NCBI RefSeq assembly: GCF_003663945.1
Contig: NZ_RCCH01000003.1
Span: 310,001 to 374,000, forward strand
Reading direction: 5' to 3'
DNA: 64,000 nt
Source: Lacinutrix venerupis
GTDB taxonomy: Bacteria > Bacteroidota > Bacteroidia > Flavobacteriales > Flavobacteriaceae
Translations under genes and position numbers: made by a program
Notes under the pieces: model-generated
Database searches by the model: none
What the model was told of the DNA's origin: nothing
What the model saw: only the letters and a program-made list of their open reading frames with translations
Part shown: positions 1 to 62,476 of the stretch, piece by piece
How positions within the stretch are numbered: the stretch's first letter is position 1
How the letters are laid out: the number at the start of each line of letters is the position of its first letter

Positions 1-62
1 ATTTAGACTTAACTGCATTTATAGAGCTTAAGAACAAAAGAAAAGTACCAACTCAAGGATAG
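1..62 (+). CDS. Small exported peptide, 3' end only (array copy, cut by window edge)
   Basis: The last 19 codons and stop of an array copy are present; codons run in frame from base 3 to the TAG at 60-62. The encoded tail, LDLTAFIELKNKRKVPTQG, matches the end of the fourth full copy exactly. The start lies outside the window. Function unknown; see the first complete copy. Confidence 0.8.
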   Translation, partial: LDLTAFIELKNKRKVPTQG

Positions 63-113
63 ACTTTTAAAAAACACATATAAATAGTAATAGCAACAAT
101 AAAAAATACACTT

Positions 114-296
114 ATGAAATCCCTTAAATTAACTTTAGTAGCACTTTTTTCAATAGGATTATTAACAGCCGTTTTACCATCAAACGAAGTAGAACTAACA
201 GTTAAAACCACTAAGCAAGACCTTTCTAAACCAGATTTAGACTTAACTGCATTTATAGAGCTTAAGAATAAAAGAAAAGTACCAACAGAAGGATAG
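114..296 (+). CDS. Small exported peptide, array copy 1 (60 aa)
   Basis: This is a 60-residue protein of no family I recognise. Residues 1-20 form a typical Sec signal: MKSLK, then a hydrophobic stretch through LFSIGLLTAV. The mature part would be about 40 residues, highly polar, with an acidic segment (SNEVE), a Lys/Thr-rich middle and a basic end (KNKRKVPTEG). There is no cysteine, so it is not a lipoprotein. The ATG follows an A-rich leader typical of Bacteroidota translation starts. Three further copies follow, then a TPR sensor kinase. A role as a secreted signal or envelope peptide is inference only. Confidence that it is a real gene comes from the conserved reading frame across all copies. 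Confidence 0.75.
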   Translation: MKSLKLTLVALFSIGLLTAVLPSNEVELTVKTTKQDLSKPDLDLTAFIELKNKRKVPTEG

Positions 297-349
297 ACTT
301 TTTAAAAGAATACATATAAATAGAAATAGCAACAATAAAAAATACACTT

Positions 350-532
350 ATGAAATCCCTTAAATTAACTTTAGTAGCACTTTTTTCAATAGGATTATTA
401 ACAGCCGTTTTACCATCAAACGAAGTAGAAGTAACAGTTAAAACTACTAAGCAAGATATTTCTAAACCAAATTTAGATTTAACTGCATTTATAGAGCTTA
501 AGAATAAAAGAAAAGTACCAACAGAAGGATAG
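350..532 (+). CDS. Small exported peptide, array copy 2 (60 aa)
   Basis: This 60-residue copy differs from copy 1 by only a few conservative changes: Leu28 to Val, Leu37 to Ile in the QDLSKP segment, and Asp41 to Asn. The signal-peptide region is identical. The spacer before it is 53 nt and shares the A-rich leader. The changes fall in the predicted mature part while the frame and length stay fixed, consistent with selection on the protein. Function unknown. Confidence 0.75.
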   Translation: MKSLKLTLVALFSIGLLTAVLPSNEVEVTVKTTKQDISKPNLDLTAFIELKNKRKVPTEG

Positions 533-585
533 ACTTTTTAAAAGAATACATATAAATAGAAATAGCAACAATAAAAAATACACTT

Positions 586-768
586 ATGAAATCCCTTAAA
601 TTAACTTTAATAGCACTTTTTTCAATTGGATTATTAACGGCTGTTTTACCATCAAACGAAGTAGAGGTAACAGTTAAAACTACTAACCAAGACCTTTCTA
701 AACCAAATTTAGATTTAACTGCATTTATAGAGCTTAAGAACAAAAGAAAAGTACCAACAGAAGGATAG
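586..768 (+). CDS. Small exported peptide, array copy 3 (60 aa)
   Basis: This 60-residue copy carries Ile at residue 9 of the signal region and Asn in place of Lys in the KTTKQD segment; it ends Thr-Glu-Gly like copies 1 and 2. The reverse-strand open frames here are only shadows caused by the repeat. Same layout as the other copies: Sec-type signal, about 40-residue polar mature part. Function unknown. Confidence 0.75.
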   Translation: MKSLKLTLIALFSIGLLTAVLPSNEVEVTVKTTNQDLSKPNLDLTAFIELKNKRKVPTEG

Positions 769-820
769 ACTTTTAAAAGAATACATATAAATAGAAATAG
801 CAACAATAAAAAATACACTT

Positions 821-1003
821 ATGAAATCCCTTAAATTAACTTTAATAGTACTTTTTTCCATAGGATTATTAACAGCCGTTTTACCTTCAAACGAAGTAGA
901 GGTAACAGTTAAAACTACTAACCAAGACCTTTCTAAACCAGATTTAGACTTAACTGCATTTATAGAGCTTAAGAACAAAAGAAAAGTACCAACTCAAGGA
1001 TAG
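821..1003 (+). CDS. Small exported peptide, array copy 4, last of the array (60 aa)
   Basis: The last copy has IVLF in the signal region, Asn in the KTTNQD segment and ends Thr-Gln-Gly like the truncated copy at the left edge. The spacer before it is one base shorter (52 nt). Similarity to the unit breaks off straight after the stop codon, where an inverted repeat and the promoter of the sensor kinase begin. Function unknown. Confidence 0.75.
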   Translation: MKSLKLTLIVLFSIGLLTAVLPSNEVEVTVKTTNQDLSKPDLDLTAFIELKNKRKVPTQG

Positions 1004-1025: not shown

Positions 1026-1058
1026 AACTAAATTTTTATTTTATTTAGTTTAAATTTG
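1026..1058 (+). promoter_or_regulatory. Inverted repeat and -7 element before the sensor kinase
   Basis: AACTAAAT (1026-1033) and ATTTAGTT (1043-1050) form a perfect 8 bp inverted repeat with a 9 nt spacer. TAAATTTG at 1051-1058 directly after it matches the Bacteroidota -7 consensus TAnnTTTG. No TTG lies at the expected -33 distance, so the inverted repeat may be a regulator site standing in for it. It could also act as a weak terminator for the peptide array, though no T-run follows. Confidence 0.35.
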
Positions 1059-1077: not shown

Positions 1078-3108
1078 TTGAGGGCTTTTTTATTATTATT
1101 TTGTAGTTTTTTTGTCTTTTTTTCTTTTGCACAAAAAGAGAGAATTAACTCTACTTTAGATTCAATTATACTATATAGAGAATATTCTAAAAATAGTAAT
1201 CTAACATTTAAGCAACGCATATTATACGCAAATAGAGCAATAACTTTATCCTCCAGTTATAGTGAAGACTCTACATTAATTAAAAGCTATAAAGCTTTAT
1301 CTTCAATTTATTTAAATCAATTAAATACTTCAAAACTAAAATCTGTAAATTTTAAAATTGTCGACTTAGCTAATAAAGCAAAAGATACAGCGGCATTAGC
1401 AAATGCAAACTATATACTAGGTTATACTTACGATGTAGAGTCGAAACCAGATAGTGCTTATTTTTATTACTCAAGAGCTGTAAAACAATACGATGTAATA
1501 GGAGATAAAAAGGATTACATAAATGTTCTCTCTAATATGAGTGATATACAATATTATGAACGTGATTATGTAGGAGCAGAAATTAATATAATTAGAGCAT
1601 TAAAAATTTTAGAAACCTTACCTGAAACCGAAGATAATATTATTGTTAAATGGGAAAGATATAATGTTTTAGGCATTATTTCCGGTGAACTTAAAAATTT
1701 TGATAAAGCTCTTGAATATTATAACCTAACAAAAAAAACAGTAAAAAATTACTCGCAAGCTTATTATTATAATGTGTTTTCAAATAATAATATAGGATCC
1801 ATTTATAGAAGAAAAGGAGATTATAAAAAAGCTATTGAAATTTTTAACGAAATACTCGAAGACAAAACCTTATTAGATAACGACTCTTTATCTTATGCTG
1901 CTGTTAAAGCCAATTTAGCTTATTCAAAATATTTAAATAAAGATTTTGAAACACAAGAGGTTAATTCTCTATTTAAGGAATCTATTAAAATTTCTAAAGC
2001 ATTAGATGATGAAATTAGTATTATGGGTACTAGTGCTTATTACTCAGAATTTTTAAGCGAAATAGGAGAAAAAGATTCAGCTAAAAAATATGTGGATTTG
2101 GCGTATAAAATTGCTAAAAACACGAAGTCTAATAGTTTTGTTTTTAGAACTTTAAAAACAAAATCTCAATTAGAAAAAGATTCTTCTAATATCTTTTTAG
2201 GAGAATACATTAAGCTAAGCGATAGTTTGGTTACTGCCGAGCGTTCAAGGCGCAATAAATTTGCAAGAATAGATTACGAAACAGATGTAATTATACAAGA
2301 GAAAGAAGCAATTTCTAAACAAAATTTATGGTTAATTATTATTTCTATAGGTCTTTTGTTTTCTATACTACTTCTATACATTATTAAAACGCAACGAGAA
2401 AAAAATAAAGAACTACAACTGGCTAAACAACAACAAGAAGCTAACGAAGAAATTTATAACCTAATGCTTTCCCAACAAGAGAAAATGGACGAAGCTAGAG
2501 CTGTTGAAAAAAAACGAATATCTCAAGAAATGCACGATGGTATTTTAGGAAGATTATTTGGTACGCGATTAAGTTTAGATAGTCTTAATATGGATAACTC
2601 TCAAGAGGCAATTATTAGTCGAGAAAATTATATTAAAGACTTAATGGAAATAGAAAAGGATATTCGTAAAATTTCTCACGATTTAAATACAGACTTTATT
2701 TCTAATACAAGATTCCCAGATTTAGTAAGCACCTTAGTAGAAACACAATGTTTAGCATACAAATTAGACTATAATATTTCTATAGATAATGATATAAAAT
2801 GGGAAGATTTAGTAAATAAAACTAAAATTCATATTTATAGAATAATACAAGAATCTCTTCAAAATATATACAAGCACGCCCAAGCAAAAATTATTAATGT
2901 GAAAATACACCAACAAGAAAATTTAATATCTTTATTGATAATTGATGATGGTGTGGGTTATGATAAATCGAAACAAAAAGATGGAATTGGTTTAAAAAAT
3001 ATAAAATCTAGAGTTGAAGCTATTGGAGGAAAATTAAATATAAAGACTAAAATTAATATTGGTACAACTATTTTTATAGAGTTACCGATTAATAATGAAC
3101 CAAATTAA
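1078..3108 (+). CDS. TPR-containing sensor histidine kinase (LuxR-system type)
   Basis: This is a membrane sensor kinase that should autophosphorylate and pass phosphate to the regulator encoded next to it. A Sec signal (MRAFLLLFCSFFVFFSFAQ) is followed by TPR-like helical repeats over about residues 30-380, for example around FDKALEYYN and YKKAIEIFN. One membrane helix lies near 417-437 and a Gln/Glu-rich coiled coil near 440-480. The HisKA_3 dimerisation domain carries phospho-acceptor His486 in RISQEMHDG. The ATPase domain has an N-box (Asn596 in ESLQNIYKHA), DDGVG at 623-627 and GIG near 636-638. The start is TTG at 1078; a stop in frame just upstream excludes a longer form. The TPR part is predicted to be periplasmic, so it could bind a peptide. 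Its 3' end overlaps the regulator by 14 bases. Confidence 0.9.
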   Translation: MRAFLLLFCSFFVFFSFAQKERINSTLDSIILYREYSKNSNLTFKQRILYANRAITLSSSYSEDSTLIKSYKALSSIYLNQLNTSKLKSVNFKIVDLANKAKDTAALANANYILGYTYDVESKPDSAYFYYSRAVKQYDVIGDKKDYINVLSNMSDIQYYERDYVGAEINIIRALKILETLPETEDNIIVKWERYNVLGIISGELKNFDKALEYYNLTKKTVKNYSQAYYYNVFSNNNIGSIYRRKGDYKKAIEIFNEILEDKTLLDNDSLSYAAVKANLAYSKYLNKDFETQEVNSLFKESIKISKALDDEISIMGTSAYYSEFLSEIGEKDSAKKYVDLAYKIAKNTKSNSFVFRTLKTKSQLEKDSSNIFLGEYIKLSDSLVTAERSRRNKFARIDYETDVIIQEKEAISKQNLWLIIISIGLLFSILLLYIIKTQREKNKELQLAKQQQEANEEIYNLMLSQQEKMDEARAVEKKRISQEMHDGILGRLFGTRLSLDSLNMDNSQEAIISRENYIKDLMEIEKDIRKISHDLNTDFISNTRFPDLVSTLVETQCLAYKLDYNISIDNDIKWEDLVNKTKIHIYRIIQESLQNIYKHAQAKIINVKIHQQENLISLLIIDDGVGYDKSKQKDGIGLKNIKSRVEAIGGKLNIKTKINIGTTIFIELPINNEPN

Positions 3109-3793
3109 AATGGCACAAGAAATTATTAAAATATTGATGACAGACGATCACCCAATGATTATTGAAGGTTATCAAAACACTTTATTAGCAACAAAAAAAG
3201 AATCTCAAAAATTAATTATAGATATAGCTACAAACTGTGACGAATCTTTAGAACTTATTAATAAATCTATATCTCTTGGTGAGCATTACACTGTATGTTT
3301 TTTTGATATTAGCATGCCGCCTTCGAGTGATGGAGAATTTAAATCTGGTGAAGATTTAGCTTTATATGTTAGAAAAAAAACAAGACGAACTAAAATTGTA
3401 ATGCTAACAATGTTCGACGAATCTTACCGTATACACAGCATAATAAATAATATAGATCCAGAAGGTTTTTTAATAAAAAGCGACATTACATCCAGAGAAT
3501 TAGCAAGTGCTTTTCAAGCAGTTTTACATAATCCTCCATTTTATAGTGGTACAGTAAATCAAATAATAAAAAGGACACGATTTAGTAATTTAGAAGTAGA
3601 TGAAGTAAACCATCATATTCTTTATCTAATATCTAAAAGTATGAAGAATAAAGATATTGCTAAAGAATTAAATCTTTCATTAAGTAGTATAGAAAAGAAA
3701 AAGAAATTATTAAAGGAAATATTTAAGGTTGAAGAAGGAGATGAAAAAACATTAATTGAAAAAGCTAAAGGCTATGGTTTTTTAAATAATTAG
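3095..3793 (+). CDS. LuxR/NarL-type response regulator
   Basis: This is a DNA-binding response regulator partnered with the overlapping upstream kinase. The N-terminal receiver domain has the acidic pair in LMTDDHP and the phospho-acceptor Asp71 (numbered from 3095) in CFFDISMP, with the conserved Lys in FLIKSD. The C-terminal helix-turn-helix (about residues 165-220, KNKDIAKELNLSLSSIEKKK) is of the LuxR type. A second in-frame ATG at 3110 gives MAQEIIKILMTDDHP and could be the true start; the overlap with the kinase argues for translational coupling either way. The palindrome, promoter and small RNA candidate immediately downstream make plausible targets. Confidence 0.9.
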   Translation: MNQIKMAQEIIKILMTDDHPMIIEGYQNTLLATKKESQKLIIDIATNCDESLELINKSISLGEHYTVCFFDISMPPSSDGEFKSGEDLALYVRKKTRRTKIVMLTMFDESYRIHSIINNIDPEGFLIKSDITSRELASAFQAVLHNPPFYSGTVNQIIKRTRFSNLEVDEVNHHILYLISKSMKNKDIAKELNLSLSSIEKKKKLLKEIFKVEEGDEKTLIEKAKGYGFLNN

Positions 3794-61750: not shown

Positions 61751-62476
61751 ATGGAAACAAAGAAAAATCCTAAAGCAAACGTAGGCAGAAATAGCTCTCT
61801 TTACTTTGCAGTTGGTATGTTGTTAATGTTAGGTTTAACATATACAGCAATCAACTATAAAACCTACGATGATCGTGTTGTAGAAGATAGGTCTATTGAT
61901 GTTGATGATGAATTGGACGAAGAAATTCCAATTACAAATCAAGCACCACCACCGCCACCACCACCGCCACCACCGCCACCACCAGCACCAGAAGTTATTG
62001 ATGTTGTTGAAGATGAAGCGGAGATAGAAGAAACGGTTATCGAATCTACAGAAACTAATCAAGAAGAAGAGATTGTAGAGGTTGAAGAAATTGTTGTAGA
62101 AGAAATCGAAGAAGATGTAGAGGTGTCTTTTGCGGTAATTGAAAGTGTACCGGAGTATCCTGGTTGTGAGAAAGGAAATAACGATGCTAAGCGTAAATGT
62201 ATGTCAGATAAAATCAACAAATTAGTTGGTAGAAAATTTGACTTAGATTTAGGACAAGAATTAGGATTAAGCGGTAAGCAACGTATCTATGCAAGATTTA
62301 CAATTGACAAAACAGGAAACATTGTTAACGTTAAAACTCGTGGTCCACATCCTGGATTAGAGAAAGAAGCTAGAAGAGTTGTAGGTTTAATACCTAAAAT
62401 GAAGCCTGGTAAACAAAGAGGAAAGCCTGTAAAAGTAACTTTCGATTTGCCAATAACATTTAACGTACAAGACTAA
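61751..62476 (+). CDS. Energy transducer TonB
   Basis: This is a 241-residue inner membrane protein that transmits proton motive force to outer membrane receptors. A helix at about 16-36 is followed by an acidic segment, a run of about 13 prolines near residue 67-79, a Glu/Val-rich stretch, and the TonB C-terminal domain (about 130-241; VPEYPGCE...AKRKCMSDKI, GKQRIYARFTIDKTGNIV, VTFDLPITFN). The C-terminal domain is nearly the same as that fused to the M56 peptidase at 5063-6853. No exbB/exbD nearby. Confidence 0.93.
   Translation: METKKNPKANVGRNSSLYFAVGMLLMLGLTYTAINYKTYDDRVVEDRSIDVDDELDEEIPITNQAPPPPPPPPPPPPPAPEVIDVVEDEAEIEETVIESTETNQEEEIVEVEEIVVEEIEEDVEVSFAVIESVPEYPGCEKGNNDAKRKCMSDKINKLVGRKFDLDLGQELGLSGKQRIYARFTIDKTGNIVNVKTRGPHPGLEKEARRVVGLIPKMKPGKQRGKPVKVTFDLPITFNVQD

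Follow-up and report, generated by a model that had tools for sequence, protein, structure and literature searches.

The seven near-identical genes for a small exported peptide that stand in tandem in Lacinutrix venerupis appear to supply the ligand in a signalling module of three parts, the other two being a histidine kinase and a response regulator encoded directly 3' of the array on the same strand. We give a probability of about one half to the reading in which the peptide acts as a self-signal (autoinduction), while the broader proposal that it is a ligand of the adjoining sensor, with either sign, is probable. The ligand model is supported by the conserved linkage of the three genes, the predicted TPR fold of the sensor, selection on the peptide C terminus, recurrent amplification, a promoter motif, and co-divergence. 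The window, that is, the whole stretch of 64,000 nucleotides analyzed, corresponds to G000:C3:310001-374000 in contig coordinates and contains the following features.

1..62, + strand: 3' end of the third of the seven peptide gene copies (copies 1-3, at G000:C3:309408-310062, are to the left of the window)
114..296, + strand: peptide gene copy 4, 60 aa, Sec signal, C terminus LDLTAFIELKNKRKVPTEG
350..532, + strand: peptide gene copy 5, 60 aa
586..768, + strand: peptide gene copy 6, 60 aa
821..1003, + strand: peptide gene copy 7, 60 aa, the last of the array
1026..1050, + strand: AT-rich inverted repeat AACTAAAT-N9-ATTTAGTT in the array-kinase spacer (weak, spacer z -1.5)
1051..1058, + strand: TAAATTTG, matching the flavobacterial sigma-A -7 box TAnnTTTG, candidate kinase promoter, 27 bp before the start codon
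1078..3108, + strand: histidine kinase, 676 residues, TTG start, signal peptide, predicted periplasmic TPR superhelix (helices 25-365), one membrane helix, HisKA_3 (H486), HATPase_c
3095..3793, + strand: response regulator with a receiver and a LuxR/GerE-type DNA-binding domain

The tandem array of near-identical exported peptide genes reported in the initial annotation is real and larger than first noted. Tandem Repeats Finder detects a 236-bp period with 4.3 copies and 95% matches at 1-1004, and four 60-codon ORFs are complete within the window. The array runs past the left edge of the window, and extension leftward along the contig gives seven complete copies (G000:C3:309408-311003), all in frame and spaced 234-237 bp apart. 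The spacers between the copies measure 51-54 bp and carry none of the promoter motifs found upstream of peptide genes. The peptide is not a lipoprotein and belongs to the soluble class described below. As in the initial annotation, no family was recognized, since searches of Pfam and NCBIfam with the peptides gave no match, and the AF2 model of the peptide alone has low confidence except for the signal helix. Elsewhere in the window, the trinucleotide CAC is repeated about 16 times at 61944-61990.

The peptide reading frame is under purifying selection. The comparison of synonymous and nonsynonymous changes between copies, which had been proposed at the outset, gave a pS of 0.138 and a pN of 0.041 over all pairs of the seven copies, a ratio of 0.30. 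By segment, pN/pS is 0.18 in the signal peptide, 0.58 in the middle, and 0.17 in the final 20 codons. Among the seven Lacinutrix algicola copies, the 20 C-terminal residues show no difference (pN 0) despite a pS of 0.136 in that segment. This pattern, tightest in the signal and the C-terminal 20 codons and relaxed in the middle, indicates that the array is coding and that the active part of the peptide is probably its C terminus. Near-identical direct repeats, which in some draft assemblies are broken or hold an N-run, could also be noncoding satellite-like DNA with fortuitous ORFs, a reading that the initial annotation had tied to frames broken in most copies of related genomes. The frames of the homologues are instead open across many genera, the exception being one weak match with stops, and single-copy orthologues occupy the same place; together with the pN/pS values, this conservation rules satellite DNA out for practical purposes. 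The proposed dose amplification of an exported product holds up, in the form of tandem genes under selection, and the suggestion of a variable product is borne out between genera but not within the genome, where the C-terminal 20 residues are nearly constant.

The linkage of peptide, kinase, and regulator is conserved in the Flavobacteriaceae. A search of 397 genomes of this family with the single peptide found homologues in 13, mostly as arrays, and a profile built from 28 peptides reaches 72 genomes, of which the weakest partial matches are probably due to chance. The weak full-length or near-full-length matches that were fetched (L053-L080) all lie directly 5' of an orthologous kinase-regulator pair (28/28), and every assessed full-length homologue sits at such a locus. 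To avoid circularity, 71 test loci were picked by the response regulator alone, using orthologues at E <= 1e-60 and more distant ones from a separate search. A short exported ORF is present just 5' of the kinase at 67 of the 71. Of the remaining four, L149 lies at a contig end, L090 has a kinase that was called too short, L096 carries a repeat-bearing version of 154 residues, and L128 has the gene at a distance of 442 bp. Among the positives, the score of L103 came from a spurious frame, but the real ORF there likewise encodes an exported protein with repeats. Taking all loci together, an exported peptide gene adjoins the kinase and regulator in 108 of 114. At the same loci, a short exported ORF was found upstream of 7 of 338 other genes (an eighth match is a kinase fragment) and of 1 of 113 regulator genes, and none of the 20 best-matching TPR kinases from other Bacteroidia families has one upstream. 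With regulator orthologues at the above threshold in 82 of 235 genera, the module occurs in roughly one in three of the sampled Flavobacteriaceae genera. Among the functions listed in the initial annotation (signal, toxin, matrix, or envelope peptide), only the signal gained specific support, from this conserved linkage to a TPR-sensor two-component system, a point that the annotation of the array does not raise.

The kinase and regulator have the hallmarks of a HisKA_3/LuxR two-component system. Domain searches placed HATPase_c above the cut-off and HisKA_3 and Response_reg just below it; the phosphoacceptor histidine H486 as well as N596 and D623/G625/G627 are invariant, and the ATPase motifs and a receiver plus GerE regulator are present. 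A signal peptide or lipobox is found at the kinase N terminus in the loci listed, and a single membrane helix separates the TPR domain from the kinase core. AlphaFold (AF2) confidently predicts a TPR superhelix at helices 25-365 that continues into one long signalling helix. The best Foldseek matches of this model are the TPR domains of LGN/Pins complexed with peptides, followed by the kinase cores of DesK and VraS, and the sequence profile of the kinase matches the Firmicutes peptide receptors NprR (5dbk/4gpk) and RapH (3q15); by fold, LGN is nearer to the TPR sensor than NprR or RapH. Moreover, N238 and N279 are conserved at 98% and 84%, respectively, and each is located at position 6 of its TPR motif, which we take to be the position that forms an asparagine ladder along the peptide backbone in LGN, KLC, and OGT. 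A viral structure search returned generic TPR and kinase matches. The kinase ORF opens right at the signal peptide, with TTG as the start codon at 79 of 113 loci and GTG at 12, so that a weak start seems to be conserved. Lacinutrix neustonica CP113088 has an intact peptide array next to a kinase gene broken up into three ORFs (L006:7147-9170), a pattern that may stem from frameshifts, from errors in sequencing, or from decay of the receptor.

Judged from sequence signals, the peptide gene and the kinase look like separate transcription units. The peptide-kinase spacers fold with z below -2 in 80% of 105 cases (mean -3.6), in many of them with T-runs behind a hairpin, and the inverted repeat at 1026..1050 of the window is a probable leaky terminator. 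The flavobacterial sigma-A -7 box is TAnnTTTG (PMC9723704). Such a box lies upstream of the kinase at 78 of 107 loci (expected 7.2), mostly 24-38 bp before the start codon; upstream of the peptide genes there is no excess (9 boxes, expected 9). A single operon of peptide and kinase was dropped because of the intervening hairpins and the kinase's own promoter. The peptide genes carry the words TCCATT and TCCCT, usually with an inverted repeat, and most lipoprotein-type loci have the promoter motif TTAATTATCCATTTTTTCCCTC. The clade of the window has a diverged motif, TTGATTCCCTTAGC...TCCATTGTATAGAC-N5-GTCTATA, with a palindrome at -114 to -96 before copy 1. When 10 genomes were searched, the gapped motif was found as a single copy in nine and was absent from the tenth, and with up to three mismatches in 20 genomes, 12 of 13 matches fell at the peptide locus. 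Within a lipoprotein-type genome, the motif is thus essentially unique. An alternative-sigma promoter for the peptide gene was rejected, as the composite motif is not repeated elsewhere in the searched genomes, unlike that of a sigma regulon (PMC9723704). An Rfam search of five related loci returned nothing relevant. Overall, the arrangement is consistent with one regulated peptide polycistron and a separate, probably weaker, expression of the receptor; because the kinase is served by a separate TAnnTTTG box and usually starts with TTG, the ligand may exceed the receptor. The weak terminator hairpin and the diverged promoter motif in the window are counterpoints to the ligand model.

A dedicated promoter motif and a high predicted dose would also suit a peptide that is the output of the system, such as an antimicrobial, matrix, or envelope peptide, with the two-component system serving as its dedicated regulator and sensing something else; regulators, moreover, often adjoin their only target. 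We consider this unlikely, since the predicted sensor fold is of a peptide-binding class and the one-to-one linkage is near-universal through two peptide types, whereas a plain effector would be expected also without the kinase or elsewhere in the genome, where none of the assessed full-length homologues lies.

About half of the peptides are of the soluble Sec type, many with ends such as VPTQG or IPSNG, and the other half are of the lipoprotein type (e.g., SC-TKQDLNEDD..TGGGVDE). The surface lipoprotein export signal (LES) of Bacteroidetes is K-(D/E)2 or Q-A-(D/E)2 just after the lipidated Cys (PMC5080379), and the lipoprotein-type peptides, which read C-T-K-Q-D-L-N-E-D-D, are acidic without an exact match to it. 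The two types share synteny (DUF456, BlaI) where flanks were fetched, indicating that they replaced each other at one locus, and the tree of kinase and regulator carries five type changes. At most loci the peptide gene is single. Tandem arrays are concentrated in a soluble-type clade that includes Lacinutrix and Bizionia, three copies are present in two lipoprotein-type genomes (L120 and L121), and at three loci the amplification is intragenic: (DSDDRETLACDDCAH)n at L103, five SGGNGGGTQVIGGNKKLDDYAYSNE-like units at L096, and three TGGGVDERDTEATTF at L108. The peptide unit has thus been amplified repeatedly and by different routes, as gene arrays at some loci and as intragenic repeats at others, which provides a natural experiment on the dose of the putative signal. 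Copy number is probably undercounted, because several draft assemblies are interrupted, or contain an N-run, in or at the array (L047:8481-9401; contig ends of G195 C4, G093 C26, L004, L005, and L009).

Across 87 loci, divergence of the mature peptide follows that of the TPR domain with a partial r of 0.46, compared with 0.27 for the signal part, after removal of kinase and regulator divergence and with permutations that ignore phylogeny. The lipoprotein class shows a difference in the same direction (0.43 versus 0.26), whereas in the soluble class, which includes the window, the mature peptide (0.11) is not above the signal part (0.21). A seemingly strong mirror-tree signal in the soluble class (partial r 0.41) was discarded, as it fell to 0.11 when distant loci and near-duplicates were removed and ranks were used. 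Because the soluble class is unconvincing, co-divergence is taken as supporting evidence only.

The linkage, fold, and promoter evidence would also fit a small exported, often lipidated peptide acting as a negative-feedback or surveillance ligand that restrains the kinase as a decoy or reports failing envelope export, like CpxP or RcsF, with no cell-to-cell role. The lipoproteins that make up about half of the family suit an envelope-borne reporter, and such members may stay cell-attached, a counterpoint to the self-signal. However, the repeated amplification of the peptide unit and its divergence between genera fit a secreted signal better, and soluble and lipidated forms exchange at one locus, so that membrane anchoring is not essential; we therefore regard this role as rather unlikely.

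In the self-signal model that we favor, copies 1-7 would probably be transcribed as one polycistron from a dedicated promoter before copy 1, and the peptide would pass through Sec into the periplasm and perhaps further out; the locus has neither a dedicated exporter nor a protease beside it. The conserved C-terminal ~20 residues (..LDLTAFIELKNKRKVPTQG), possibly after further processing, are the likely active part and would be bound by the periplasmic TPR superhelix of the adjoining kinase, which would relay the signal to the LuxR-type regulator. The most likely dedicated target of the regulator is the peptide promoter itself, giving a putative positive loop, and a wider regulon may exist. The tandem copies would raise the dose of peptide relative to receptor. 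The module is directly testable, because the candidate ligand, receptor, regulator, and probable target promoter are all at one locus.

The conserved trio points to a hitherto undescribed form of peptide signalling among Gram-negative bacteria. We know of no two-component system for sensing peptide pheromones that has been established in Bacteroidota. The open-access full-text literature yielded no description of the module, although an earlier one is possible in the subscription literature outside this search; the locus is likewise not described in the text searched of two papers on Flavobacterium colony spreading (PMC9950754, PMC7807042). More tentatively, and as a possibility we hold with some doubt, this would be peptide quorum sensing in Gram-negative members of the Bacteroidota, common among Flavobacteriaceae: a peptide that is lipidated or exported by Sec would meet a periplasmic TPR receptor-kinase, and its dose would be tuned by tandem copies or intragenic repeats.

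Comparing the module with known systems, the HisKA_3 kinase core and LuxR-type regulator are shared with NarL/DesK/LiaS-type systems, which differ from it in the large exported TPR sensor and the linked exported peptide gene found here. The generic TPR histidine kinases of other Bacteroidia families have the same domain order and are the best profile matches outside Flavobacteriaceae, but are set apart, in the 20 assessed, by the missing upstream ORF. In the Gram-positive systems ComCDE and Agr, which sense peptides through two components, the sensor is a polytopic membrane protein and the peptides leave via dedicated exporters. As in those systems, an exported peptide gene stands beside a histidine kinase and a response regulator, and the peptide promoter is probably autoregulated; unlike them, the present module relies on a Sec signal and on a sensor with one membrane helix and an extensive TPR domain in the periplasm. 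RRNPPA systems are the peptide-pheromone systems of Firmicutes (Rap, NprR, PlcR, AimR, and others), and those with several similar propeptides, or several pheromones per propeptide, are called "chatterers" (PMC9765709). Likewise, the predicted TPR receptor here is of a peptide-binding class and adjoins an exported propeptide gene, and, as in some RRNPPA systems, there are several similar propeptides. However, RRNPPA receptors are cytosolic and their peptides are re-imported, whereas the module of Bacteroidota has an exported TPR domain joined to a histidine kinase in one protein. With a receptor that is not cytosolic, a sensor that is not polytopic, and no dedicated exporter seen adjoining, the module belongs to neither the RRNPPA nor the ComD/AgrC type, although it resembles a peptide-sensing two-component system whose receptor has an RRNPPA-like fold; if the proposed model is true, it would represent a periplasmic equivalent of RRNPPA signalling in Gram-negative bacteria.
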